Source: a virus
Length of the DNA stretch: 36,234 nucleotides
IMG/VR virus record: IMGVR_UViG_3300007346_000088
Span: 1-36,234 of that record
Reading direction: 5' to 3' (one strand)
This document shows positions 3,258 through 31,730 of the stretch, in pieces. How positions within the stretch are numbered: position 1 is the first letter of the stretch; each line of letters starts with the position of its first letter. The position numbers were made by a program, and so were the translations under genes. The notes beneath the pieces were generated by a model. It was given only the letters and a program-made list of their open reading frames with translations, made no database searches and had not been told where the DNA came from.

Positions 3258-5391
3258 TAGTCTCGACGATGCGCTAGCCGCAGAGCTAAAAGACTCATAC
3301 GAAAACATCCCAAAGGGAGAGCGCCCAGGCGAGCTAGTAGACGACGATGTACTTCGTAGATTTAAGAAGCAGGAGCAGGCCAAAAAGCTTGTGGCCTGGG
3401 CCAAGTCTGAATACGAAAAATGCAAAAGCGCTCGTAAGACAGAAGAGAACGATTGGTACCTTCACCTTGCTTTCTACAACGGTTATCAGTACCACGACTG
3501 GAGAACTGTCGCTGGCAAGCAGGGCCTAGCAGAAGAGCCAAATCCATCAAACTTGCCTCGTATTACCGTAAACCGCATCGAGCCTGTAGTTCGAACTGAG
3601 ATTGCAAAGACCACAGCCCAGAAGCCATCGGCTGCAGTAGTTCCAGCATCTAACGATGAGGACGATCTGCTATCGGCTACGGCTGGTGAGCAGGTATGGA
3701 ATGCAATCTACGACCAGAACAAGTTCCAGACCGACGTGCTACAGAAGGCGGAGTTCTGGAGAGCCATCACGGGCAATGGATTTATCAAGACTTTTTGGGA
3801 CTCCAATAAGAAGGTATACGAAACCGTCAAGGTTACCGACGAGCTAACTGGCCAGTCAAGAACCGAACGTCGCCTTGCTTATGTTGGTGACGTAGTGCAG
3901 GAAGCAGTATCGCCATTCCACGTGTACGTCCCAGACCAGTCCGAAGAGGACATCGAGCGTCAGCCATACATACTAAATGTGTACACAAAATCTGAAGAAT
4001 ATGTAAAGCAGACTTTTGGTGCCGTGCTTCCGAAAGATTTCAAGCCAAGCAAGGTTGCTGCCAGCGAGATTCAAGACGCATCCTTGATGGATCTTCGCGG
4101 CATTGACAACGCAAAGCCAGATGCCGTTTTGATTATGGAGATGTGGGTAAAGCCAGGGGCAAACAAGTGGCTGCCAAACGGTGGTCTTGTCACCATCGTT
4201 GACACCGAGATTGTCCAGTACTCAGACACAGGCATTCCCTACCACCACGGAGAGTACCCATTCGCGCACTTGCAGGGTATTTCAAACGGTAAGTTCTACC
4301 GCCGCTCTGTTATCAAGAACCTGATCCCTCTGCAGCGTGAGTACAACCGCACTCGCTCTCAGATTGTGCACGCTAAGAACCTGATGGCTAAGCCTCAGAT
4401 GATGTACGACGAGGGCTCAGTTGACCCACGAAAGATTACAGCTCGTGCGGGTATCTGGATTCCGGTTCGCCCTGGATTCAGCAAGCCGACTCCAGTTCCA
4501 ATCCAGCCACTACCAAGCTACGTGCTTCAGGAAGTGCAGCAGCTACAGGCAGACTTTGAGGACATCTCAGGTCAGCACCAAGTTTCTCGCGGCGAGGCTG
4601 GCGGGCTAACTGCAGCTACTGCGATTGCCTACTTGGGTGAGCGCGATGACGCATACTTGACTACAATTTTCCACAGCATCGAAGCAGGTGTAGAGAAGAT
4701 TGCAAGGCAGTCACTTGCTCTGTTCGTACAGTACGTCGAAGAACAGCGCTTGATAAAGATCACTGGCTCCGACGGATCATTCGACGCAATGATGCTTTCC
4801 GGTGCAGATATCGCATCGGGTACCGACATTCGCATTGAGTCTGGCTCCGCATTGCCAACCAGCAAGTCTGCCCGCCAAGCGCTTGTCACCGAATGGATGA
4901 AGATGGGCTTTATCCCACCAGAGGACGGCCTACGCATCCTCGAAATGGGAATGCTCAAGCAGTACTACAACATCATCAAGATCGACGAAAACTCTGCCCA
5001 GCGAGAGAACCTACTCATGAAGCGCATCACCGAAGAGATGCTTCAGGAGATGGAGGCAAACTGGAACGAAGGCGCTGCCAATGGCGACCAAGACAAGGTC
5101 AACCCAGAAACCGGCGAGCCTCTGCAGGTTCCTCCAATGATTCCAATCAATGCTTGGGACAACCACGCAGTTCACGTCGAGGTTCACAACAGGTTCCGCA
5201 AGAGTCAGGCCTTCCAGCAGCTGCCTGATGTTGTTAGGGCCGAGTTCCAGAAGCACATCTCGATGCACGAACAAGTTTTGCAACAGCAGCAAATGCAGCA
5301 AATGCAGATGCAGGCTATGCAAGAAGGATCTCAGTCAGGTGCCAAAGAGGCTCCTCTCCAGTCTGGGATGACAAAAGAGCAATTAGGATAA
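3247..5391 (+). CDS. Portal protein (P22-like)
   Basis: 714 residues, the length expected for portals of P22-like short-tailed phages. It forms the dodecameric ring through which DNA enters and leaves the capsid. Supporting stretches include the Trp/Tyr-rich N-terminal region (HLAFYNGYQYHDW), the central GISNGKFYRRSVIKNLIPLQ near residue 350, and the SRGEAGGLTAATAI segment near 450, typical of portal stem and clip regions. The C-terminal 30 residues are Gln/Met-rich (repeated QQMQMQ), like the extended barrel or tail helices of this group. It begins 11 bases inside the preceding small membrane gene and lies directly before the scaffold gene. Confidence 0.9.
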   Translation: MATNSLDDALAAELKDSYENIPKGERPGELVDDDVLRRFKKQEQAKKLVAWAKSEYEKCKSARKTEENDWYLHLAFYNGYQYHDWRTVAGKQGLAEEPNPSNLPRITVNRIEPVVRTEIAKTTAQKPSAAVVPASNDEDDLLSATAGEQVWNAIYDQNKFQTDVLQKAEFWRAITGNGFIKTFWDSNKKVYETVKVTDELTGQSRTERRLAYVGDVVQEAVSPFHVYVPDQSEEDIERQPYILNVYTKSEEYVKQTFGAVLPKDFKPSKVAASEIQDASLMDLRGIDNAKPDAVLIMEMWVKPGANKWLPNGGLVTIVDTEIVQYSDTGIPYHHGEYPFAHLQGISNGKFYRRSVIKNLIPLQREYNRTRSQIVHAKNLMAKPQMMYDEGSVDPRKITARAGIWIPVRPGFSKPTPVPIQPLPSYVLQEVQQLQADFEDISGQHQVSRGEAGGLTAATAIAYLGERDDAYLTTIFHSIEAGVEKIARQSLALFVQYVEEQRLIKITGSDGSFDAMMLSGADIASGTDIRIESGSALPTSKSARQALVTEWMKMGFIPPEDGLRILEMGMLKQYYNIIKIDENSAQRENLLMKRITEEMLQEMEANWNEGAANGDQDKVNPETGEPLQVPPMIPINAWDNHAVHVEVHNRFRKSQAFQQLPDVVRAEFQKHISMHEQVLQQQQMQQMQMQAMQEGSQSGAKEAPLQSGMTKEQLG

Positions 5392-22877: not shown

Positions 22878-23624
22878 CTATCCTTCGTTAGGAATTACCT
22901 CTATAGTGACCGTCTCGCCCTCTATATTATCATCAGTTGGCTCAGGAATTGCCGAAAGTGGTGAATGTCCCTGCGCTAGTGCAACCAATTCTCTAGCGAT
23001 ATTGCGCTTTACAATCGGATCGCGAACGTTCCTAAGTACGATGTCTTGGATCTGCATCATCAGCGCAGGGACATCCAAGCTTTGTCTCGCATTCGGATCA
23101 AACCTACCAGTAAGTTGATTGATGAAGGTAATCGCCTTCATATCTCCCTGCTGCACAAGCTGTCCCAGCGCTTGATCTGCAATCGGGATGTACTTCTTTA
23201 GGTTCTCTTCGCTCTTCTCGCTAAGCGCTGCAGCAAAGTGCTTCTCGCGCATCCAGCCGTCTAGCTCAGTGGTAGATATCTTTAGCTGCTTCGCAATGAT
23301 CTGCGGAGGCTTTAGATTCAGTGGGTTTAGGTATGCCTGCAGAAATGTCTCCTGCCTCAGGCTTAGATTCGGGTCTTTCGTGGTCTTGATGCCACGATCT
23401 TCTAGCGACTTTTGGAACTTTGTAGAACCCCAGACCAAGTCCAGTTGCTCTCTGTCCAGTGTCTCATCCTGGTCGAGAACAGTCTGGGGCTCCACAAAGA
23501 ACCCTCTTCTGTCTGCCGCGACAGCGGCAGCCAAAACCTTTTCAAATAGCGCTTGCTCTTTAGTCTGCTTGCGCGATGTGACCTTGGTCTCGAATTTGTC
23601 GAGATCTAGCTCATTCTCCATCAT
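22878..23624 (-). CDS. Putative terminase small subunit
   Basis: 248 residues from ATG 23624; a TTG at 23642 would add six. The central part LSLRQETFLQAYLNP, PPQIIAKQLKISTTELDGW followed by a Phe and a helical region IADQALGQLVQQGDMKAITFIN is the layout of phBC6A51-type helix-turn-helix small terminases, which recognise the packaging site and load the large subunit. It lies about 20 kb from the large subunit and on the other strand, which is unusual. An alternative is another phage DNA-binding regulator with the same fold. The gene overlaps a 46-residue frame upstream. Confidence 0.55.
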   Translation of the reverse strand: MMENELDLDKFETKVTSRKQTKEQALFEKVLAAAVAADRRGFFVEPQTVLDQDETLDREQLDLVWGSTKFQKSLEDRGIKTTKDPNLSLRQETFLQAYLNPLNLKPPQIIAKQLKISTTELDGWMREKHFAAALSEKSEENLKKYIPIADQALGQLVQQGDMKAITFINQLTGRFDPNARQSLDVPALMMQIQDIVLRNVRDPIVKRNIARELVALAQGHSPLSAIPEPTDDNIEGETVTIEVIPNEG

Positions 23625-23751
23625 AGTTTTGAAAAACCTCAATAATCGCTTCTAGTAGTCGTTCCTGGTCATCGGTGCAGTCACCGCTAGCAATCACAGC
23701 ATCGACAACGTCTATGCAAATCTGAATGCCTGCCATGACATCCTCGTTCAT
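23611..23751 (-). CDS. Micro-protein (46 residues), acidic
   Basis: Short frame MNEDVMAGIQICIDVVDAV, then ERLLEAIIEVFQNYDGE. Its ATG overlaps the regulator's stop (ATGA), and it ends inside the start of the putative small terminase gene. It predicts two amphipathic helices and no motif. The overlap chain supports a translated gene. Acidic and small, it could be a partner of the regulator encoded just before it. Confidence 0.55.
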   Translation of the reverse strand: MNEDVMAGIQICIDVVDAVIASGDCTDDQERLLEAIIEVFQNYDGE

Positions 23752-24365
23752 GCTGCCGGCAACTTCTCTAGCTCAACCACGTAATCCACGCTCATTCCAT
23801 AAGGCTTGAATGCTTCTAACAGCTTACGTGATAGCACCTCTGGGAAGGCGTTCATCTCGCCAGCCTCATACCTCGAGACCACAGCCGGGTTTACCCGCAG
23901 CATGCTAGCGAGCGCCGTAGGCGTCTTCGCCACATCTGAGCGCCACTGTCTAAACGATTTGTAGTACTGGCCCAAGGTGTAGGGCGGTATCAGCATTAGG
24001 TTCGCTACTGCTGGCGGTGCTTCGATCTCAAGCGGGGCGGATGCAAATTGCTTGCACTGCTCTCGCAGCTCTTCAGCCGTGATGCCCAGACCCGTGACAA
24101 GTGGTGCCAAGATGGCATCGCTAGGTGTCTTAGTCCTGCCATCCTCGATAGCTGTCACAGCTGCGCGGTTCACGCCTGCTCGCTTTGCTAGCTCGACCTG
24201 AGATATGCCCAGCTGCAATCTAGCTAGGCGAATCGGGTGATTATTTATTCGCGCCACAGTCGCTCTCCCTGCAAACAGAAAGTCTTTTGCCACACTCATT
24301 GCAAGGTGGGATCTGCTGGTCATCGATAAATATTGCTCTCCCTGGTGAGGGATGAATCCATACAT
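23748..24365 (-). CDS. Tandem helix-turn-helix (XRE-like) transcriptional regulator
   Basis: 205 residues with two HTH domains. The first, about 46-98, has RLARLQLGISQVELAKRAGV and AVTAIEDGRTKTPSDA, the classic Cro/C1 pattern. The second, about 138-192, has TPTALASMLRVNPAVVSRYE and then GEMNAFPEVL. A Pro-rich linker lies between. The likely role is repressor or switch of early genes. The -10 box of its promoter (24374-24379) is part of a TACTCATG element also found at three other promoters, so self-control is likely. With that promoter the mRNA would begin almost at the ATG (leaderless). Starting at M15 (24323), after GGGAGAG, is the alternative. Confidence 0.8.
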   Translation of the reverse strand: MYGFIPHQGEQYLSMTSRSHLAMSVAKDFLFAGRATVARINNHPIRLARLQLGISQVELAKRAGVNRAAVTAIEDGRTKTPSDAILAPLVTGLGITAEELREQCKQFASAPLEIEAPPAVANLMLIPPYTLGQYYKSFRQWRSDVAKTPTALASMLRVNPAVVSRYEAGEMNAFPEVLSRKLLEAFKPYGMSVDYVVELEKLPAA

Positions 24366-24369
24366 GTGT

Positions 24370-24401
24370 CATGAGTATAAGTATAGTAGACACCCTTTCA
24401 A
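24370..24401 (-). promoter_or_regulatory. Promoter and operator of the regulator gene
   Basis: On the minus strand, TTGAAA (24396-24401), a 16-base spacer and TATACT (24374-24379) form a good sigma-70-type promoter. The -10 runs into CATG, giving TACTCATG (24370-24377), the shared operator-like element. The predicted transcript start is two to four bases from the ATG at 24365. Confidence 0.65.
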
Positions 24402-24466
24402 AATCAATGCTCTCTGGAGGTCTAGCTAGCAACAGATGGAAATGTTTTGGGATTGACAACATGGAT

Positions 24467-24502
24467 TTGACCCTGCCCTGCTCACTTGCTAAGCTACTCA
24501 TG
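24467..24502 (+). promoter_or_regulatory. Early promoter 1 with TACTCATG element
   Basis: TTGACC (24467-24472), 17 bases, TAAGCT (24490-24495). CTACTCATG (24494-24502) overlaps the -10. From 24487 to 24528 the sequence nearly matches the start of the cassette at 25606-25646, including the leader palindrome CCAGCTGG. It drives the 24539 gene. Confidence 0.7.
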
Positions 24503-24538
24503 TCAGCAACCCAGCTGGCACCAACCGAAGGAGTAACA

Positions 24539-24967
24539 ATGTATAACACCGCAGTGGCCCGCAATGAGCGGGGACGCATCACCGGCATCATGGCCAAGCG
24601 CCTTGACCAAGACAAGCTGGCCGATGTCATCGCTGACGAGCTCTCTCGTGAGGGCAACCTGCCCCACGGAGGGGCAGCAAAAATTGAGCCAATGGACGCC
24701 GTCGTGGTGTGGTCTCAAGCTAGCCTTGCCATCGCCGTGGTCAATGAGGAGGGCGTTGGTGCCTTCGAAGAAGAAGACCACGTGAGGGTCTGGTTTACCT
24801 ACGGCAAAGAGGGCATGTTTTACCACGACGTGCTCGTGCCAGTAAACGACATCCTAGAAGCACGCCAAATAACTGAGGAAGTTGACCTGGCTGACTTCAT
24901 CCGCACCTTCGGGGCTCGCCTCGACAGCAACCACGAACTCTGGGCTCGTTGGGCCCTCGGCGAATAA
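24539..24967 (+). CDS. Hypothetical early protein
   Basis: 142 residues from ATG 24539, which has AAGGAG five bases upstream. A longer frame back to 24371 would include the promoter and is rejected. Mixed alpha/beta protein with an acidic C-terminal half (GAFEEEDHVRVWFTYGKEG). Not recognised. It is the first gene after early promoter 1 and next to the divergent regulator, so it may act early in takeover, but nothing in the sequence names a target. Confidence 0.75.
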   Translation: MYNTAVARNERGRITGIMAKRLDQDKLADVIADELSREGNLPHGGAAKIEPMDAVVVWSQASLAIAVVNEEGVGAFEEEDHVRVWFTYGKEGMFYHDVLVPVNDILEARQITEEVDLADFIRTFGARLDSNHELWARWALGE

Positions 24968-24969
24968 GA

Positions 24970-25010
24970 AAGGAGACGGGGGCCCTCCGGGGCCCCCAAC
25001 CAAAACCATG
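24970..25010 (+). promoter_or_regulatory. Hairpin between Shine-Dalgarno and start codon
   Basis: AAGGAG (24970-24975) lies 32 bases before the ATG at 25008. Between them is an 8-bp G/C-only stem (24978-24985 with 24990-24997, loop TCCG). If folded, the effective spacing falls to about 12 bases. It also resembles a terminator but has no T run. Confidence 0.6.
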
Positions 25011-25241
25011 GATTCATACGAACAGATCGAGACAAAACTACGCAACCTTGAGCCATTCCGTGGCAACTCCATGATGGGGCTGCTTGACGAATGGGGCTCG
25101 TACAAGGTTTACAGCTACAGCACCCAGATAGCCCAGGCATACCCAACAGCCTCCGGCATCAGGGCAAAGATGAACAATGAAAAGTTCAGCACTACTACCA
25201 GCAGGCATCAGAACCTAATCCGGAAGGCGTGGGGACTATGA
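25008..25241 (+). CDS. Small protein with YSxxI / FSTTTSRHQ motif
   Basis: 77 residues from ATG 25008. KVYSYSTQIA and then FSTTTSRHQNLIRKAW form a pattern common in very small phage proteins, a beta hairpin followed by a His-containing helix, grouped as DUFs without known function. The start is reached through the hairpin-containing leader described at 24970-25010. The stop overlaps the next ATG. Confidence 0.65.
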   Translation: MDSYEQIETKLRNLEPFRGNSMMGLLDEWGSYKVYSYSTQIAQAYPTASGIRAKMNNEKFSTTTSRHQNLIRKAWGL

Positions 25242-25429
25242 AACAGTTCGAATTCAACGTTTACATCGAGACACTAACCATCTGGGCCAAGGACGAAGAG
25301 GAGGCTGAGAAGCAGTATGCAGCCTACTACGAGGACGGAGTCTGCGTCCTACACGATACCCACTTTAGCGAGTGCCACTGCCTCGAGCACGATGACGAGG
25401 TAGGCCACACAGTTACGGAGCTAGCATGA
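25238..25429 (+). CDS. Small DpnD/PcfM-like protein
   Basis: 63 residues from ATG 25238 (overlaps the preceding stop as ATGA; a GTG nine bases earlier is weaker). The pattern FEFNVYIETLTIWAKDEEEA, then an aromatic helix and VCVLHDTHF, resembles DpnD/PcfM-like proteins: a strand with I-E-T, a second strand, an EEA helix and a third strand. Three residues CHC near the C-terminus may bind metal. Function unknown. Similar strand-EA-helix proteins recur at 25865, 27846 and 28043. Confidence 0.6.
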   Translation: MKQFEFNVYIETLTIWAKDEEEAEKQYAAYYEDGVCVLHDTHFSECHCLEHDDEVGHTVTELA

Positions 25430-25512
25430 TTTTCTACAACGGATTCAATTTGCTGGTTGATGTAATCCTGATTACAATCACAGCGCTAATTGTCCATCGG
25501 TTGGGCAAATAG
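25426..25512 (+). CDS. Membrane micro-protein (28 residues)
   Basis: Its ATG overlaps the preceding stop (ATGA), and GGAG lies six bases upstream. The protein MIFYNGFNLLVDVILITITA, then LIVHRLGK, is one membrane helix with a basic end, so N-out/C-in insertion is likely. A strong terminator starts three bases after its stop. The position at the end of an operon with ordered coupling supports expression. Confidence 0.5.
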   Translation: MIFYNGFNLLVDVILITITALIVHRLGK

Positions 25513-25514
25513 GG

Positions 25515-25545
25515 AGAGGGGCTCTTAGGAGCCCCTCTTTTTTTC
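25515..25545 (+). terminator. Rho-independent terminator closing early cassette 1
   Basis: A perfect 10-bp stem (25515-25524 with 25529-25538) and TTAG loop, followed by seven Ts. Confidence 0.92.
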
Positions 25546-25549
25546 AGCC

Positions 25550-25583
25550 CGACTAGAAGCAACGACTGGAATGCATTGCGGTG
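25550..25583 (+). repeat. 34-bp direct repeat, copy 1
   Basis: Matches 26115-26148 with two mismatches. It begins CGACTAGAAGCAACGA and lies just after a terminator and upstream of early promoter 2. It may be a protein-binding element or a mark of cassette duplication. Confidence 0.8.
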
Positions 25584-25586
25584 ATT

Positions 25587-25621
25587 TTGCCAATGTCGGC
25601 GCACCTGCTAAACTACTCATG
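25587..25621 (+). promoter_or_regulatory. Early promoter 2 with TACTCATG element
   Basis: TTGCCA (25587-25592), 16 bases, TAAACT (25609-25614). CTACTCATG (25613-25621) overlaps the -10. The -10 and leader (25606-25646) nearly equal those of early promoter 1. Confidence 0.65.
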
Positions 25622-25664
25622 TCAGCAACCAGCTGGCACCAACCGATACAAAAGGAGTAACCAA

Positions 25665-25865
25665 ATGAACAGAATCAGAGTCGAATTGACTTTTGACGAG
25701 TACAGGGCGCTAGGCGACAAGGCCGAAGAGCTTGCCAATGCGTATGCACGCATAGTCGCAGACAAGGAAGACCCAGCCGACATAAAGAGGTACAAGAAGT
25801 CATACAAATTGTGGGCCGGCATTCAAACCGCAGTCATTTCGGACTCAGAATGGATTGACGACTAA
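25665..25865 (+). CDS. Small hypothetical early protein
   Basis: 66 residues from ATG 25665, preceded by AAAGGAG. An in-frame extension to 25581 would cover the promoter and is rejected. Begins MNRIRVELTFDEYRALGDKA and is largely helical and charged. Not recognised. Its stop overlaps the next start (TAATG). Confidence 0.7.
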   Translation: MNRIRVELTFDEYRALGDKAEELANAYARIVADKEDPADIKRYKKSYKLWAGIQTAVISDSEWIDD

Positions 25866-26059
25866 TGCCAGAGTTCGAAATTCGATACAGCGAAGTTGAG
25901 ATGTTCACGGCATACTTTCACGCAGAGAACGAGAAGGAGGCCCGTGAGGTAGCAGAGAACCTCCGCACACTTGACTGGGATGACATTGAGGGCTGGTACA
26001 GCAAGCGCAGGGACTTCGACCTAGAAATCGACCTTGACAGCCTGAAACAGCTCGACTAA
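25865..26059 (+). CDS. Small protein of the strand-EA-helix family
   Basis: 64 acidic residues: MPEFEIRYSEVEMFTAYFHA, then ENEKEAREVAENL and a C-terminal beta/acidic part. The plan (MPxF strand, second strand ending in A, E-x-x-E-A helix) matches the genes at 27846 and 28043 and loosely DpnD/PcfM-like proteins. Function unknown. A strong terminator follows nine bases after the stop. Confidence 0.65.
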   Translation: MPEFEIRYSEVEMFTAYFHAENEKEAREVAENLRTLDWDDIEGWYSKRRDFDLEIDLDSLKQLD

Positions 26060-26068
26060 CCCAAGCCA

Positions 26069-26110
26069 ACACCGCCAGCACTCCCCCCTTAGTGCTGGCG
26101 GTGTTTTTTT
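26069..26110 (+). terminator. Rho-independent terminator closing early cassette 2
   Basis: A perfect 14-bp stem (26069-26082 with 26091-26104), an eight-base C-rich loop, then seven Ts. Confidence 0.93.
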
Positions 26111-26114
26111 GCTA

Positions 26115-26148
26115 CGACTAGAAGCAACGAGTGGAATGCAATGCGGTG
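26115..26148 (+). repeat. 34-bp direct repeat, copy 2
   Basis: Second copy of the element at 25550-25583 (two mismatches), again just after a terminator and upstream of a promoter. Confidence 0.8.
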
Positions 26149-26162
26149 TTTGCGGTGCTAAT

Positions 26163-26198
26163 TTGCGCTTGCCCTACTAATCTGCTATGCTACTTATC
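26163..26198 (+). promoter_or_regulatory. Early promoter 3
   Basis: TTGCGC (26163-26168), 17 bases, TATGCT (26186-26191), preceded by TGC as at promoters 1 and 2. The element after it is CTACTTATC (26190-26198), two changes from the CTACTCATG of the other two. Confidence 0.6.
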
Positions 26199-26214
26199 AA
26201 TGCAGTAGACACAA

Positions 26215-26260
26215 CCAATACCGCCGACACAAAAATTCATGCAAGTGATGGCGGGATTGG
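26215..26260 (+). promoter_or_regulatory. Leader hairpin upstream of Cys-rich gene
   Basis: In the roughly 90-base leader after promoter 3, 26215-26225 pairs with 26250-26260 (11 positions, one mismatch) around a 24-base loop. It ends 16 bases before the AGGAG ribosome site. It has no T run, so mRNA stability or translational control is more likely than termination. Confidence 0.45.
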
Positions 26261-26285
26261 CTAACCAACCGAACAGGAGATAACA

Positions 26286-26543
26286 ATGAACACCTTAGAA
26301 ATGCACAAATGCGATTGTGGCAACGATGCCGACAATTACCTACCAACAGAGACACCGCTTGCGGGCTACCCCCCTCAATGTTCTGATTGTGCACACGCCG
26401 ACGAATGCCCATGGCCTGAAGACGGCGCATTTACCTATGGCCACGCAATTGCAAGTTGCAACAGTTGCACCTATAAGTGTGGCCTTTGGGAATGCGGTTG
26501 TGACCTAAACCACTCTTGCAAAGACTACCCACGAAACTACTAA
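26286..26543 (+). CDS. Cys-rich small protein, probable zinc binder
   Basis: 85 residues with eleven cysteines: CDC near residue 9, CSDCAHADEC (about 32-41), then CNSCTYKCGLWECGC (about 58-72) and one more. The first spacings fit two or more zinc knuckles. The pattern is not one I can name. It is the first gene after promoter 3 and has an AGGAGATAACA ribosome site identical in style to its neighbours. It may be an early protein that binds host proteins or nucleic acid. Confidence 0.7.
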   Translation: MNTLEMHKCDCGNDADNYLPTETPLAGYPPQCSDCAHADECPWPEDGAFTYGHAIASCNSCTYKCGLWECGCDLNHSCKDYPRNY

Positions 26544-26562
26544 CCACGAAAAGGAGATAACA

Positions 26563-26868
26563 ATGAGAATGAACTACACCGACATCAAACAGGAACTACA
26601 AGCCAATTGGGAACAGTTTGCAAGCAACCAATACCCCGAAGACTTGCTGAACGAATTCGCCGATTCCGCTTGCCCCGTTTACTACAGCGAAATAGTCAAA
26701 GATTGGCAAGAGATGCCCAACGAATTCACCGATGTATGGTGCGAAGAGGGGCACACGGGCAACACAATCTACAGCCTTATGACTTACGACCTTTACAACT
26801 ATTACCACCACCAATACCACCGCGCTTACAACGAACTATGCGAAGAAATGGAACCCCAAGATGCCTAA
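26563..26868 (+). CDS. Hypothetical protein, Tyr/Glu-rich
   Basis: 101 acidic residues starting MRMNYTDIKQELQANWEQF and containing MTYDLYNYYHHQYHRAYNEL near the C-terminus. Two short helical parts flank a Cys (SACPVYYSEI). Not recognised. Strong AAGGAGATAACA before the ATG. The stop overlaps the next gene by eight bases. Confidence 0.7.
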   Translation: MRMNYTDIKQELQANWEQFASNQYPEDLLNEFADSACPVYYSEIVKDWQEMPNEFTDVWCEEGHTGNTIYSLMTYDLYNYYHHQYHRAYNELCEEMEPQDA

Positions 26869-27004
26869 CTTTTGCCAATACGACAGCGACAATCACAGCC
26901 CCGACAGCGTGACAGTCTGGCACGGGCAACCCACCCCAACTTACCTATGCGGATACCACGCAACTTGGAACCTAAACACAATCCTGAAAGGACTAAAGAA
27001 ATGA
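26861..27004 (+). CDS. Small Cys/His protein (47 residues)
   Basis: Short frame beginning MPNFCQYDSDNHSPD, with VWHGQPTPTYLCGYHATW in the second half: Cys5, His12, Cys30 and His33 could chelate one zinc. It overlaps the genes on both sides (8 and 4 bases), with ATGA at its end. The pattern of coupling and the conserved-looking C/H spacing support a real gene. Function unknown. Confidence 0.6.
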   Translation: MPNFCQYDSDNHSPDSVTVWHGQPTPTYLCGYHATWNLNTILKGLKK

Positions 27005-27156
27005 ACTACACCGACACCTTTACCACCAATGAGAACACGACAGACGGGGAGGTATTGGACAGGCTTTATGACCTGATCTATAGAACCGAACTAACCGACG
27101 AAAGAAAGTTGCACTTTGTGACCCTGACTCTTGAATGGGCAAAGGAGACTAACTAA
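27001..27156 (+). CDS. Small acidic hypothetical protein
   Basis: 51 residues from ATG 27001 (ATGA overlap with the previous stop, and AAAGGAC upstream). A longer frame to 26872 lies inside the preceding gene and is rejected. It starts MNYTDTFTTNENTTDGEVLD and ends in a helix. Not recognised. The start MNYTD also opens the 26563 gene after its second residue. Confidence 0.6.
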   Translation: MNYTDTFTTNENTTDGEVLDRLYDLIYRTELTDERKLHFVTLTLEWAKETN

Positions 27157-27245
27157 TGACCACCGAATGCCCTAACCACGCGGGGAGCTTTGATTGCACC
27201 CCATTTTGCCCACTATGTGAAGGAGAACAGGAGATAACACAATGA
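27156..27245 (+). CDS. Zinc-knuckle micro-protein (29 residues)
   Basis: MTTECPNHAGSFDCTPFCPL, then CEGEQEITQ: four cysteines and a His (C5, H8, C14, C18, C21) in 29 residues are enough for one zinc site. It is coupled on both sides (TAATG and a four-base overlap). Its stop region contains the AGGAG of the next gene. Function unknown. Confidence 0.5.
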   Translation: MTTECPNHAGSFDCTPFCPLCEGEQEITQ

Positions 27246-27397
27246 CCACTTATACAGTTTGGGTAGGGGGCACAGAAGTGACCGATTACTATCTACCGCT
27301 TGACCAAGCAAGAAAACTGAAAGCCCTTTACTTGGAAGACGATTATGACGATGTAGAAATCCGTGAAAACACAGACAAAGAATACGAGGTGGACTAA
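27242..27397 (+). CDS. Small hypothetical protein (51 residues)
   Basis: MTTYTVWVGGTEVTDYYLPL, then a helix and DDVEIRENTDKEYEVD. The strand-strand-helix-strand order resembles the other small proteins of this module. Preceded by AGGAGATAACACA and followed by TAATG. Not recognised. Confidence 0.65.
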   Translation: MTTYTVWVGGTEVTDYYLPLDQARKLKALYLEDDYDDVEIRENTDKEYEVD

Positions 27398-27846
27398 TGA
27401 CCAACCTGAGAAACGACAATGGCAATTACACCCTTGAGGCCGTGAAAAGCGGTGCTATTTGGGAGGGCGAAATGTCCTACGATGACTGGATAGAAAAGTA
27501 CAAGCCAATTGATAACACCATAGGCAAGTATGTCTCCAAAGGTGAAAAGCAATTCGAAACCTATGGGGCAGAGAAAGAGTTTGTCCTTGACCAAGATGCA
27601 GAGTATGTCTGGACTTGGGTGACCGGTGACAATGCCGACCTGCTTTTGCCAGGATTCCACTATGTCAACCGCTTTGCTTTCTTTGTCTGTGAAGAACCGT
27701 GGACTGAAGAAGACCAACAGGTGCTTATGGCAGTCGAAATCGAATGCGAATGCTTTGACCAAGACAAGTGGGACGAGGGTGCCGATTCTGGCAACCCTGA
27801 ATGCAAACAATGCGAAGGCTATGGACTAAGAACGGAGTATCTATAA
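27397..27846 (+). CDS. Hypothetical early protein with C-terminal CxxC
   Basis: 149 acidic residues. The N-terminal part (to about 50) has a YDDWIEKYKPIDN segment, the centre is beta-rich, and the C-terminal end has CECFDQDKWDEGADSG followed by CKQCEGYG, the CxxCxGxG form seen in zinc-binding domains. Not recognised. Start and stop overlap neighbours by one base. Probably a zinc-bound early protein. Confidence 0.7.
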   Translation: MTNLRNDNGNYTLEAVKSGAIWEGEMSYDDWIEKYKPIDNTIGKYVSKGEKQFETYGAEKEFVLDQDAEYVWTWVTGDNADLLLPGFHYVNRFAFFVCEEPWTEEDQQVLMAVEIECECFDQDKWDEGADSGNPECKQCEGYGLRTEYL

Positions 27847-28043
27847 TGCCAACCTTTATGACGTATTACCAAACAGGCGACTATGGCAAGCTTTGGTTTG
27901 AGGCCAAAGACCTAAAAGAAGCACAAGACCTGCTTGAGGAGGTTAGCTATGGGGAAAGAATGTCCCTAGACGACCTGCCCAAGCTACAAACCAAAGTGCA
28001 AGGCGATGAGCTTAGCTTTCAGGGACTGACGGAGGTGAAATAA
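27846..28043 (+). CDS. Small protein of the strand-EA-helix family
   Basis: 65 residues from ATG 27846, which overlaps the previous stop (TAATG). Begins MPTFMTYYQTGDYGKLWFEA, followed by LKEAQDLLEEV. The shared plan with 25865 and 28043 (start MP-x-F, strand, strand ending in A or D, E-A helix) suggests paralogs. The rest is acidic. Function unknown. Confidence 0.65.
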   Translation: MPTFMTYYQTGDYGKLWFEAKDLKEAQDLLEEVSYGERMSLDDLPKLQTKVQGDELSFQGLTEVK

Positions 28044-28228
28044 TGCCCGAATTCAATTTCAGCGTAGTGGTAACCGACATCTATGAATTGATCATTGATG
28101 CCGACAACTACGAGAAAGCGGAAAGAATTTTAGATGCCCGAATTGATGTCGCTGAGTATGGCGAACACCTTGACGGAGAAGTGAACTATAACTTACACAC
28201 CGGCCCCGAAGTGACGCAAGTGGCGTAA
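28043..28228 (+). CDS. Small protein of the strand-EA-helix family
   Basis: 61 residues: MPEFNFSVVVTDIYELIIDA, then DNYEKAERILDARID and a His-containing tail. Closest by plan to 25865 and 27846 in this window. It ends cassette 3, and the long inverted repeat region begins 46 bases after its stop. Function unknown. Confidence 0.65.
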   Translation: MPEFNFSVVVTDIYELIIDADNYEKAERILDARIDVAEYGEHLDGEVNYNLHTGPEVTQVA

Positions 28229-28274
28229 GCCGTAGGTGCACTTTGACACGAATTCCAATGAGGTTGCCTTAAGA

Positions 28275-28328
28275 GACACCTACTCAATGCTAATCGACTC
28301 ATGAGTAGGATAGTAATGAGTAGGTGTC
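28275..28328. repeat. Long inverted repeat with TACTCA/TGAGTA arms
   Basis: GACACCTACTCA (28275-28286) and TGAGTAGGTGTC (28317-28328) are perfect inverted copies around a 30-base loop. Pairing can extend outward through CTTAAGA/TTCTTAAG with one bulge. The loop contains the 10-bp palindrome ACTCATGAGT (28297-28306). No T run follows, so operator or origin-like use is likelier than termination. Confidence 0.8.
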
Positions 28329-28422
28329 TTCTTAAGAGCTCAATAGGAAACGCAAAAAGTAAACGACAACTACTGGGCAAAACCCATTATTGGAACTCAA
28401 TCCCACAAAAAAACAACCCAAT

Positions 28423-28475
28423 TTGACAATCACAATGACGATGAGTAGGATTGCACTGTAAATCTACTCATCGTC
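28423..28475 (+). promoter_or_regulatory. Promoter with inverted-repeat operator
   Basis: TTGACA (28423-28428), 17 bases, TAGGAT (28446-28451). GACGATGAGTAG (28437-28448) and CTACTCATCGTC (28464-28475) are perfect 12-bp inverted copies with a 15-base spacer, one overlapping the -10 and the other just after the start point. That is a textbook repressor layout. AAGGAGA precedes the ATG at 28490. Confidence 0.8.
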
Positions 28476-28489
28476 CGTAAGGAGACAAA

Positions 28490-29095
28490 ATGACCGATTA
28501 TCACCCAATCTACGGCGAGCTTTTGACCTCTCGCCAGACCTCTGACCTGACTGGTTACACTATGAATCAGTTGCGAAATTTCCGTCAGAGAACCGACACA
28601 GCACCCTTCGGATTCGTCCGACAAGGAGGCACATCTTGGTATCGCAAAGACGACATCGAGGCATGGCTTGAAAAGAATGGTGCAGTCGAATACGAGTATG
28701 TTGCACCCCCAAGTGGCATCACCACCCCACTTCGCTCAACTGTTACCGATGCAAAGACTCGTGAGCACTTGGCAGAACTAGCCAAGATCACGACAAAGAA
28801 TGCATGGGGTTCACATGGCACATGGCTAACTGAGCAATCAGGGCTATCAGATGCCCACAACAGGGTGAACGAATGGGCAGAGGAGCTATGGAATCTCCAC
28901 CGCTCTGACAACCCCGATGCAGAAGAGTTCATGGCTTTGAACTTCTCTCGTGTTGACAATCCGGCTCAGTATTGGCCTGCCATTACTTGGGCTGTTCGCA
29001 AAGCCACGGCTTTTGTGCGCGGATGGAATGATGTAACCGATGCAGAGATAATGGAGATACCAGTGGGAGAAGTTCCACCAAGTAAGGTTGTATAA
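28490..29095 (+). CDS. DNA-binding protein with N-terminal MerR/excisionase-type wHTH
   Basis: 201 residues. Residues about 11-65 match a winged helix of the excisionase/MerR type: LLTSRQTSDLTGYTMNQLRN, then the wing GGTSWYRKDDIEAWLEKNG. The remaining 130 residues are helical with several Trp and look like a partner- or DNA-binding domain that I cannot name. It is the first gene of the replication operon and its promoter carries the strongest operator in the window. It may be a replication initiator, origin-binding protein or switch regulator. Confidence 0.7.
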   Translation: MTDYHPIYGELLTSRQTSDLTGYTMNQLRNFRQRTDTAPFGFVRQGGTSWYRKDDIEAWLEKNGAVEYEYVAPPSGITTPLRSTVTDAKTREHLAELAKITTKNAWGSHGTWLTEQSGLSDAHNRVNEWAEELWNLHRSDNPDAEEFMALNFSRVDNPAQYWPAITWAVRKATAFVRGWNDVTDAEIMEIPVGEVPPSKVV

Positions 29096-29096
29096 A

Positions 29097-29129
29097 AGAA
29101 ATCCCCCGAGGATTTCTCAACTCGGGGGA
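29097..29129 (+). promoter_or_regulatory. Mutually exclusive hairpins (attenuator-like)
   Basis: AGAAATCC (29097-29104) can pair with GGATTTCT (29110-29117). TCCCCCGAG (29102-29110) can pair with CTCGGGGGA (29121-29129). The two stems share 29102-29104 and 29110, so only one can form. The second resembles a terminator but is followed by CTTCTCTG, not by Ts; the same CTTCTCTGAAAGGAG-type tail follows the hairpin at 34825-34870 with four extra bases. Confidence 0.5.
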
Positions 29130-29149
29130 CTTCTCTGAAAGGAGTAACT

Positions 29150-29209
29150 ATGACCAAGAACCACCAAGGTCACGACCAGACTATAACACAATCGAAAGAG
29201 TGCAATTGA
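29150..29209 (+). CDS. Leader micro-ORF (19 residues)
   Basis: ATG with AAAGGAG six bases upstream encodes MTKNHQGHDQTITQSKECN and stops at TGA 29207-29209, overlapping the TTG start (29206) of the next gene. The strong ribosome site belongs to this frame, not to the larger gene, so it probably loads ribosomes for it. A frameshift joining the two is the alternative. Confidence 0.45.
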   Translation: MTKNHQGHDQTITQSKECN

Positions 29210-29508
29210 GTAAAACGCAAAAAACTTCACTGAACTATTTACTACAAGAAGCACTTGAGAATGGTCGGTGGGAGCTCGTTTCGGCTGAGGGCAACTCAGA
29301 GAAGTGGGTCAGAGGAGATGAAACTGTCACCATTGCAAAGAACCTACTTCGTAGCACTGAACCGCCAAGCGTAATCTTTGAGGTGTTCGAGCCCGAGATC
29401 AACTTCAGAAGAACTGATTCACTTGTTATGAATCTGTTATGTCTGAGGCTTGCCAAATCCTCAAAGATGTCATCTTGGTATGATAAATTGTCTACTACAA
29501 CTGAATAG
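29206..29508 (+). CDS. Hypothetical protein, start coupled to leader ORF
   Basis: 100 residues if started at TTG 29206 (AAAGAG five bases upstream, TTGA overlap with the leader); GTG 29200 would add two. A basic helical N-terminus (LSKTQKTSLNYLLQEALENG) precedes a beta-rich middle with EKWVRGDETVTIAKNLL. It resembles small phage DNA-contact proteins in shape only. Not recognised. Confidence 0.6.
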   Translation: MSKTQKTSLNYLLQEALENGRWELVSAEGNSEKWVRGDETVTIAKNLLRSTEPPSVIFEVFEPEINFRRTDSLVMNLLCLRLAKSSKMSSWYDKLSTTTE

Positions 29509-29534
29509 CAAACTACAAGAAAGAGAGTAACCAA

Positions 29535-29768
29535 ATGGACACAATGACCAAATCAGCAGGCATCGCACTAAATGTCTGGCAAGAAGAAGACACCTGGCTC
29601 ATGTCGCTTTACCCTGAAAGTGAAGCCGGCATCGATTCCAGTAGCTACATCCGCCTTGACTACAGCAGAAGGCAACTACAGCGATACTTCGACATCACCG
29701 ATGACGATGATTGGTGGACTAGTGACACGGAGGAGCTGGAGTGGATTCTCTTCGGCACACGCCCATGA
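29535..29768 (+). CDS. Small acidic hypothetical protein
   Basis: 77 residues with a Trp/Asp-rich C-terminus (FDITDDDDWWTSDTEELEW). The N-terminal half may form a beta hairpin. Not recognised. AGAGAGTAACCAA precedes the ATG, and the stop overlaps the next gene (ATGA). Confidence 0.65.
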   Translation: MDTMTKSAGIALNVWQEEDTWLMSLYPESEAGIDSSSYIRLDYSRRQLQRYFDITDDDDWWTSDTEELEWILFGTRP

Positions 29769-30112
29769 ACGATGATGAGGAATTCGAAGAAGTCCCTGAG
29801 TTCCTCACGGGCTTGGCAGAGAAGTTAGATGCCAGACCCCACCTGATCGCGACACGACTCGGCAAAAGGTATTCACCACGGCGGTTCAAGCGGGCAGTTA
29901 GACGGCTATGCAGACACTTCGGCATACCGGCAAACCTGACCTCGCTAATCGCTGTCACCTCGATGCACGATTACGAGTTGGCAATCTTTGACCAGTATTT
30001 GTTTCTGTTCAGAGTTGACACAGACTTCGCTGAAGTAGTAGCTTACGAACCAGCGATGCTACACGCAACACTAACCATGGAAGATGACACACGCATCGTC
30101 CAATTTGTATAA
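29765..30112 (+). CDS. Hypothetical protein with basic centre
   Basis: 115 residues from ATG 29765, which overlaps the previous stop; an in-frame ATG at 29741 lies inside that gene and is less likely. An acidic start (MNDDEEFEEVPEF) is followed by a strongly basic stretch (about 34-50: GKRYSPRRFKRAVRRLC) and a beta-rich end. The basic helix suggests nucleic-acid contact. Not recognised. Confidence 0.65.
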   Translation: MNDDEEFEEVPEFLTGLAEKLDARPHLIATRLGKRYSPRRFKRAVRRLCRHFGIPANLTSLIAVTSMHDYELAIFDQYLFLFRVDTDFAEVVAYEPAMLHATLTMEDDTRIVQFV

Positions 30113-30121
30113 GGAGACTAA

Positions 30122-30499
30122 ATGAGTAACGCAACCACCGACCGCCAGCTACTAGATGATGCCAAGGCAAAGCTAGTAACCAAGGCGAAAGAATCCAAGT
30201 CATCGACCAAGTCGGTCGAGGCTACCGATGCCACCCTTGCTAACGAACTGCTAGCCAAGCGTGGCGAGATCTACGATGCCAAGAAGAAGCTCACTGATGA
30301 GCTGGCTGAGATTGATGCCATCATCAAGGACATGATTGGCTCGGCTGACCAACTCACCATTCATGGTGCCAAGGTCGCATCCATTGCACGCTGGCGTGAG
30401 ACAGCCCTGATTACTGACACGGTGAAGACCACCTTCCCTGTTGCTGAGTATCCAGAGCTTTACAAGCGCACCAGCAAGACACGGCTCACGGTGCACTAA
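30122..30499 (+). CDS. Nuclease-associated coiled-coil protein (phage recombination type)
   Basis: 125 residues. A helical region (about 35-75: ELLAKRGEIYDAKKKLTDEL and DAIIKDMIG) precedes a small beta part and the C-terminal motif TFPVAEYPELYKRTSKTRL. That combination (charged coil, G-x-x-V-A strand, then P-x-L-Y near the end) is familiar from small phage proteins encoded with exonucleases and ssDNA-binding proteins. Exact function unknown. AAGGAGACTAA precedes the ATG. The stop and next start overlap. Confidence 0.65.
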   Translation: MSNATTDRQLLDDAKAKLVTKAKESKSSTKSVEATDATLANELLAKRGEIYDAKKKLTDELAEIDAIIKDMIGSADQLTIHGAKVASIARWRETALITDTVKTTFPVAEYPELYKRTSKTRLTVH

Positions 30500-30774
30500 T
30501 GATTAGCTTTGCAAGAGTTCGCGAGCCAGAGAAGGGTAACCCCTTCTGCGAGTGCATCCACAACAGGGAACTCGAGCACGAGGTAAACCCTGAGCTCACC
30601 TACTTCGTCATGAGTGATGATGTCCATGAGAAATGGGGCATTGACTACGAGCTAGGCGAAATGCTTATCTACAGCCCTGACTTCGGTCACCCCGAACACG
30701 GTGATGACCGGTGCCTGTGGGTTGCCCAAACAATTGACTTTGATTTCTTTATGTTAGGTGAGGAGAGACCATGA
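30499..30774 (+). CDS. Hypothetical protein
   Basis: 91 acidic residues. Contains CECIHNRELEHEVNPEL near the N-terminus and several His/Asp/Glu (FGHPEHGDDRC), so metal binding is possible. Not recognised. One base overlaps the preceding gene and four overlap the next (ATGA). Confidence 0.6.
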   Translation: MISFARVREPEKGNPFCECIHNRELEHEVNPELTYFVMSDDVHEKWGIDYELGEMLIYSPDFGHPEHGDDRCLWVAQTIDFDFFMLGEERP

Positions 30775-31001
30775 GACCAAGGATCAGAGATGTTATCGAT
30801 GACATCATCGATGGCCTCTACTCCAAGCGATTGGATGAGGCATTCGAGATGGGTATTCGTGAGGGCTCACGGCGAGCACTCAGTTCAGCAAAGATTCGCA
30901 TTGAGATGCGAGCCAACAGCCTCACTCCGGCTAGAAAAGTAGGTGCAGAGATGGCTGTTGAGACTATCGAGGAGGAGCAGGAGCAATGGAAAAGAAGGTA
31001 G
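30771..31001 (+). CDS. Small helical hypothetical protein
   Basis: 76 residues, almost all predicted helix, alternating Arg and Glu (RRALSSAKIRIEMRANSL). GAGGAGAGACC lies before the ATG, and the gene overlaps both neighbours. Not recognised; charge pattern suggests a dimeric coil. Confidence 0.6.
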   Translation: MRPRIRDVIDDIIDGLYSKRLDEAFEMGIREGSRRALSSAKIRIEMRANSLTPARKVGAEMAVETIEEEQEQWKRR

Positions 31002-31316: not shown

Positions 31317-31419
31317 CACACACTTCATGTGCAGGGACTGCAACCGCATTTACGAAACAACTTCGCGTGGCGAAGGTGAAGTAAACATTTGCAAGTACTG
31401 CAGTTATGAAGTCGACTGA
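31309..31419 (+). CDS. Zinc-ribbon micro-protein 3 (36 residues)
   Basis: MSDTHFMCRDCNRIYETTSR, then GEGEVNICKYCSYEVD: C8, C11, C28 and C31 form a minimal zinc ribbon. A longer in-frame extension to 31147 lies inside the previous gene and is rejected. Its stop and the WhiB start overlap by one base (TGATG), so the two are coupled. Confidence 0.6.
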   Translation: MSDTHFMCRDCNRIYETTSRGEGEVNICKYCSYEVD

Positions 31420-31730
31420 TGACCGGCAAGATTGGATTCTTTACCAACCATGAGAAACAACGCGCTTGGCTACAACTAGCCAAGAAAGTAGGAGATGTCG
31501 GCCTTGACCACATACCTTGTGCTCAAGCGCCCGACCTCTTCTTTCCCGAAGTAGACCCGAAGCTAGGCCACCCGCTTAGCTACATGAGAACAGCAAAGAA
31601 GGCTTGCAAGACTTGCCCGATCTTGTTGGACTGCGCTGCATACGCAATCGAGTTCAATGAAGATGAAGGCATCTGGGGAGGCATGAGCCCCGGCGAGCGT
31701 AAACAAATGCGAAGGAGACGAAATGCCTAA
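31419..31730 (+). CDS. WhiB-family Fe-S transcription regulator
   Basis: 103 residues. The four cluster cysteines are present at C34, C63, C66 and C72 (C-x28-C-x2-C-x5-C), followed by the diagnostic G84-I-W-G-G88 turn and a basic tail (GERKQMRRRRN). WhiB proteins bind a 4Fe-4S cluster and contact the host primary sigma factor region 4. Phage copies can block or redirect host WhiB. Three tiny zinc proteins precede it in one overlapping run. The family is restricted to actinobacteria and their phages, so this fixes the likely host group. Confidence 0.92.
   Translation: MTGKIGFFTNHEKQRAWLQLAKKVGDVGLDHIPCAQAPDLFFPEVDPKLGHPLSYMRTAKKACKTCPILLDCAAYAIEFNEDEGIWGGMSPGERKQMRRRRNA

Follow-up and report, generated by a model that had tools for sequence, protein, structure and literature searches.

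The window, by which the whole analysed stretch of 36,234 bases is meant, is the virus record IMGVR_UViG_3300007346_000088, and a virtually identical copy of the locus is present in a second record, IMGVR_UViG_3300007344_000693. A search of annotated phages with the DNA of 22900–30800 yielded no match. The terminase of the window is nearest to those of Arthrobacter phages (about 45% identity), and a WhiB-like regulator is encoded within the replication gene block (31419–31730, plus strand). Because of the Arthrobacter-phage-like terminase and the WhiB-like protein, the host is likely to be an actinobacterium. A regulator with tandem HTH domains diverges from the early genes, and the gene starting at 28490 (gene 28490) heads a block of helicase/exonuclease (replication) genes. 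The following features are relevant:

23748–24257, minus strand: tandem-HTH regulator (HTH_31/HTH_3), originally proposed as the binder; start taken from at least 15 relatives
24370–24377, minus strand: TACTCATG at the regulator promoter; the ATG is conserved in L006, L007, and L008, the TACTC is not
24383–24392, minus strand: TGTCTACTAT, the conserved word of the regulator promoter, with exact copies in 14 of 18 relatives
24495–24502, plus strand: TACTCATG after the −10-like TAAGCT; its ATG at 24500 is in frame with the gene at 24539–24967
25614–25621, plus strand: TACTCATG preceded by TAAACT; second copy of the 24495 promoter (duplication D10)
28274–28329: distal dyad, a 56-bp nested palindrome (inverted repeat I2), at the same place in 20 relatives
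28423–28451, plus strand: promoter-like TTGACA-17-TAGGAT of gene 28490 (consensus scan, 10/12)
28437–28475: proximal dyad over the −10 and the presumed start site (inverted repeat I14)
28490–29095, plus strand: protein of 201 aa, the proposed binder of both dyads, with weak matches to HTH_17 and excisionase families

The original prediction regarded TACTCATG as a shared operator, by which the tandem-HTH regulator would control its own promoter, early promoters, and the replication genes in one switch that also included lysis. The exact word occurs five times in the window (at 5012 on the plus strand within coding sequence, at 24370 minus, 24495 plus, 25614 plus, and 28300 minus) versus 0.78 expected, and none of 100 shuffles reached this number. 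When one mismatch was allowed, the 33 occurrences versus 25 expected were unremarkable. In the intergenic DNA of about 1.9 kb, the core CTACTCA is present seven times versus 0.15 expected. The enrichment of CTACTCA is genuine and essentially that of a single locus, because five of the seven intergenic cores fall in 28229–28489, where 0.04 are expected. The four top matches in the window to a half-site model, which was built from the relatives only, are all located inside the 28274–28329 palindrome. Down to the weakest of the predicted promoters the model gave 18 matches, of which six are at 28.27–28.48 kb, three are the promoters themselves, and nine are elsewhere, mostly in genes. The copies at 24370, 24495, and 25614 score like chance coding matches. 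The motif scan of the window thus bore out the over-representation of TACTCATG, but located the excess essentially at 28229–28489 and left the promoter copies at chance level. Likewise, the word is present at 24370–24377, 24495–24502, and 25614–25621, but it is not conserved there in the relatives checked, and the 12-bp inverted copies described around the 28423 promoter are real, but carry TACTCATC instead of TACTCATG. The near-copy at 26190 reads TACTTATC.

For the regulator, the start at 24365 is probably wrong, as relatives begin at the residue that matches the GTG at 24257 (MARI.DHPVR). The N-terminal extension of 36 aa up to 24365 is broken by stop codons or frameshifts in L006, L007, and L008. 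Nineteen loci with a relative of the regulator were fetched, and the upstream region was readable in 18 of them. At the regulator promoter, TACTCATG was found in 0 of these 18 relatives and TGTCTACT in 15. The word TGTCTACT/AGTAGACA at 24383–24392 recurs at an early promoter of the window (26204–26211) and also at an early promoter in L007, L010, L017, and L024. To judge from these sequences, TGTCTACT/AGTAGACA would be a better candidate than TACTCATG for the regulator's own operator. A Cys-rich frame of 43 aa at 24241–24372 on the minus strand (MTHVWIHPSPGRAIFIDDQQIPPCNECGKRLSVCRESDCGANK) has the ATG of TACTCATG as its start codon and overlaps the start of the regulator. Its sequence and ATG are kept in L006, L007, and L008, and no Pfam match was obtained for it.

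The two early copies at 24495 and 25614 are both located in the same 32-nt duplication (family D10, 91% identical) and therefore represent one event. Between the regulator and the palindrome, neither TACTCAT nor ACTCATG was found in L007, L010, and L024, which have the palindrome class of the window; L010 has three CTACTCA in this interval. With 0 of 18 regulator promoters and no TACTCAT in these three early regions, the shared switch on TACTCATG found no confirmation, and its tie to lysis was not supported either. The non-conservation of the word and its chance-level scores led to its rejection as a conserved operator of the regulator and early promoters. Each of the three promoter copies closes with an ATG that is plausible or conserved as a start codon, and at 24495 this ATG follows TAAGCT at approximately the distance expected of a leaderless transcript, of which it may be the start. 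Leaderless transcripts are common in Actinobacteria, and they account for 26% of the M. tuberculosis genes with a mapped primary start (PMC3898074). The copies of TACTCATG at 24370, 24495, and 25614 are probably made up of promoter sequence and an ATG start codon. At 25614, the ATG begins a frame of 13 codons (25619–25660, MSATSWHQPIQKE), which terminates on the ribosome site of the following gene and might encode a leader peptide. A box with the sequence GCAACGAnTGGAATG is found at 24429, 25559, and 26124, upstream of the early cassettes. The relatives L006–L024 also have this early-cassette box in several copies per genome, with the sequence GGGAATGAnTGGAATGTGATG or GGGACGAnTGGAA in some of these relatives, and it is a candidate for an early-promoter element.

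The dyads in 28229–28489 are a different matter, and they and their conservation can be read directly from the sequences. The distal dyad consists of two 28-nt arms with zero spacer and contains four ACTCA/TGAGT half-sites. The arms of the proximal dyad are GACGATGAGTAG (28437–28448) and CTACTCATCGTC (28464–28475), and in the window this dyad covers the TAGGAT −10 of the predicted promoter of gene 28490. In L042, TTGACA-17-TAGAAT is read directly; not every subgroup of relatives showed a clear −35/−10 overlap. A pattern scan with the palindrome core retrieved seven viral contigs, each with the palindrome upstream of a homologue of gene 28490, and protein searches revealed 23 loci with homologues. 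The dyads recur upstream of the homologues in 20 related viral loci, including homologues of only 28–38% identity. In the window and the 20 relatives with enough upstream sequence, the centre of the distal dyad is 177–212 bp before the start codon, with that of L062 being uncertain. The proximal dyad is located at about −34 to −45 in most relatives, and the distal dyad lies about 140–160 bp upstream of it. Among 15 aligned distal dyads, 11 symmetric pairs have changed on both sides, and 83.8% of the cells are paired versus 22–46% when the alignment is slid. In line with the original prediction, the repeats at 28275–28480 look like operators for a DNA-binding protein at the promoter heading the replication genes. 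As in an autoregulated operator, the sites overlap the core promoter of gene 28490 itself and are conserved together with the gene.

The half-site differs between groups of relatives. It is CTACTCA in the window group, CTACTTA/CTACTAC in L046, L047, L050, L056, and L058, CTACA in L059, and GAAGATAG in L061 and L063. Distal and proximal dyads share about 9.8 six-mers when they are from the same genome or class, versus 4.8 for different classes and 3.4 for a spacer control. When one genome per class was used, 3 of 720 distal–proximal pairings were as good as the true one. One exception is L062, the two dyads of which share little (5 six-mers). The half-site thus appears usually to change in both dyads together. 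Since the dyads of one genome share their half-site and co-diverge in it, a single binder most likely reads both.

The symmetric two-sided changes, and the very stable folds predicted in every class tested, would also fit hairpins of RNA or single-stranded DNA, acting in attenuation, as a single-strand initiation signal, or as a processing site, in place of double-stranded protein sites. This explanation is quite improbable. Nothing in a hairpin requires a common word with a dyad about 140–160 bp away, yet the two dyads usually have their word in common; the class A palindromes keep their symmetry right into the centre (ACTCATGAGT), the place at which an RNA would need a loop; and the distal dyad of the window is not followed by a T-run.

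Pairs of closely related phages are informative on the identity of the binder. L016 and L049 are views of one contig, and L017 and L056 are views of another. The regulators of these two contigs are 97.6% identical, and their dyad classes are different. Their gene 28490 homologues (L049 versus L056) are 78% identical in the DNA-binding part, 21% in the linker, and 96.4% in the C-terminal part. In a second swap, L015/L043 versus L012/L058 and L011/L050, the regulators are 98.2–98.8% identical and the dyad class is switched. In both swaps, the identities of the homologues are 75–78% in the DNA-binding part, 21–25% in the linker, and 86–96% in the C-terminal part. The reverse case is L043/L049, which have the same class and a DNA-binding part of 98.4% identity, with a regulator identity of only 83.5%. 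Because the class switches between regulators that are 97.6–98.8% identical, the sequences indicate that the tandem-HTH regulator does not set the half-site word. Near-identical copies of it meet different words, and the word goes with the DNA-binding half of the gene 28490 homologue, which does not support the regulator as the originally proposed binder. The gene 28490 protein is likely to be the best candidate for the binder of both dyads, with the caveat that its DNA-binding half adjoins the dyads, so that both could have been inherited in a single recombination block even if they were functionally unrelated.

These results also bear on two wider roles of TACTCATG. That the tandem-HTH regulator binds this word at its own, early, and replication promoters is highly improbable: the window does have the word at each of these promoters, but it is unconserved at the regulator and early promoters of the relatives, its promoter copies score like chance matches, and the class of the dyads changes while the regulator stays nearly the same. 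Alternatively, in this phage only, the gene 28490 protein might also act on recent TACTCATG half-sites at 24370, 24495, and 25614 and thereby tie the early genes to the replication gene. The copies at 24495 and 25614 carry CTACTCATG, the full class A half-site, and with the palindrome word given beforehand the copies exceed the 0.04 expected in intergenic DNA. Nevertheless, this is a very doubtful proposition, as the sites are absent from class A relatives, they are single half-sites only, two of the three are a duplication, and the ATG is explained by the start-codon reading.

The gene 28490 protein was predicted by AlphaFold2 (mean pLDDT 74) to contain a winged HTH of the MerR/excisionase type in residues 1–63 and a helical part in residues 84–190. 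Its matches to HTH families are weak (E about 0.0006–0.05). The HTH model resembles the folds of BldC, RdfS, and Xis, and the comparison with BldC gave a TM-score of 0.74–0.76 on the target and a Z of 7.5 over 55 residues. By its modelled fold, the N-terminal domain is assigned to the MerR/BldC/Xis winged-HTH superfamily, for which the support from sequence is weak. A search of 50,697 annotated phage records gave no match to the protein, no homologue was confirmed in cellular genomes, and a sequence search of solved structures with the family gave nothing meaningful. The protein belongs to an undescribed family of phage proteins. A role as excisionase was rejected, as no partner integrase was found: PF00589 and PF00239 were unmatched in 11 records, which may be fragments.

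Taken together, 28229–28489 is best explained as the control region of gene 28490, the protein of which would bind both dyads and autoregulate its own promoter; we assign this reading a probability of roughly two in three. Most likely, the winged-HTH protein binds the CTACTCA half-sites of both dyads. When bound to the proximal dyad, the protein would lie over the −10 and the start site and shut off its own promoter, and the distal 56-bp palindrome would load more copies of the protein and may loop to or cooperate with the proximal dyad. We infer binding, repression, and looping from this arrangement, in which the distal dyad would be an auxiliary site and the autoregulated gene would open the replication block.

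The position of gene 28490 at the head of the helicase/exonuclease block would also be compatible with an origin, at which the gene 28490 family is the initiator or origin binder, the distal palindrome is the loading site, and the proximal dyad provides autoregulation of the kind known from iteron plasmids. The distant relatives L060, L061, and L063 have a tandem pair of perfect DnaA boxes 268–291 bp before the gene, and the window has a weak cumulative GC-skew minimum near 26–28 kb. However, neither the window nor its closer relatives have a DnaA box close to the dyads, an identical pair of boxes also precedes a capsid gene in one of these three distant relatives, no consistent skew change occurs at the dyads across the relatives, and domain and family searches did not find a known initiator domain in the gene 28490 protein. 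The origin is thus possible, though unlikely. The boxes were discarded as proof of an origin because the pair stands before the capsid gene too, and GC skew was discarded as a signal because the 26–28 kb minimum is not repeated across the relatives. The 32-nt tandem DnaA-box pair is found at 1367–1398 of L064 and 1102–1133 of L065, which are from one virus of 41.9 kb, before the dyads and before the apparent capsid gene. The GC skew of L060 is very strong about 2.2 kb upstream (+0.41) and 1.5 kb downstream (+0.46) of the gene, and that of other relatives is near zero.

With autoregulation by the gene 28490 protein as the preferred reading, the proposed genome-wide switch gives way to a specific pair of one protein family and two matched dyads. 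Autoregulation is ordinary in principle; what the relatives provide, for a family of phage proteins that is undescribed, is a clean natural series of specificity classes, including phage pairs with near-identical regulators. Because these pairs differ in their dyads and DNA-binding halves, recognition of the BldC/Xis type is open to a direct domain swap. Speculatively, and with still less probability than the origin, the dyads and the family could form an undescribed type of module for the control of phage replication. In it, a protein with a BldC/Xis fold and a C-terminal domain of its own would bind the origin and also repress its own promoter, and the DNA-binding domain and the dyads would be swapped together as a matched cassette, by which specificity would change between phages that are nearly identical in other respects.

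Several known systems can be compared with this locus. As in switches of the CI/Cro type, the window encodes a tandem-HTH regulator that is divergent from early genes; however, the conserved candidate site of the regulator is TGTCTACT instead of TACTCATG, and changes in the 28.3-kb palindromes do not track the regulator sequence. In SGI1, an example of an iteron-type origin whose rep gene is autoregulated, S004 of the S004-rep/oriV system has an HTH_17 domain, and oriV contains 17-bp direct repeats downstream of rep (PMC7433901). The locus resembles such iteron origins in that repeated sites adjoin the gene of a DNA-binding protein at a replication module, and in the DnaA boxes of some distant relatives of the window. 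In contrast to SGI1, the sites are two inverted dyads upstream of the gene, and neither a Rep domain nor a DnaA box is present in the window. The excisionases Xis and RdfS and other recombination directionality factors often oligomerise on DNA (PMC11963761). They have the same small winged-HTH fold, and the gene 28490 protein weakly matches phage excisionase families, but searches of 11 records found no tyrosine or serine recombinase, and the dyads are at the gene's own promoter and not at an att site. The closest solved fold for the N-terminal domain is BldC of Streptomyces, a MerR-like winged-HTH protein of 68 aa that binds 9-bp AT-rich direct repeats and occupies repeated short promoter sites as cooperative multimers (PMC5859096). 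In contrast to BldC, the gene 28490 protein has an additional helical part and a length of 201 aa, and its putative sites are inverted dyads with a half-site of the CTACTCA type. The presence of several half-sites per dyad would fit oligomerisation on DNA like that of BldC and RdfS, which this analogy suggests for the gene 28490 protein as well.
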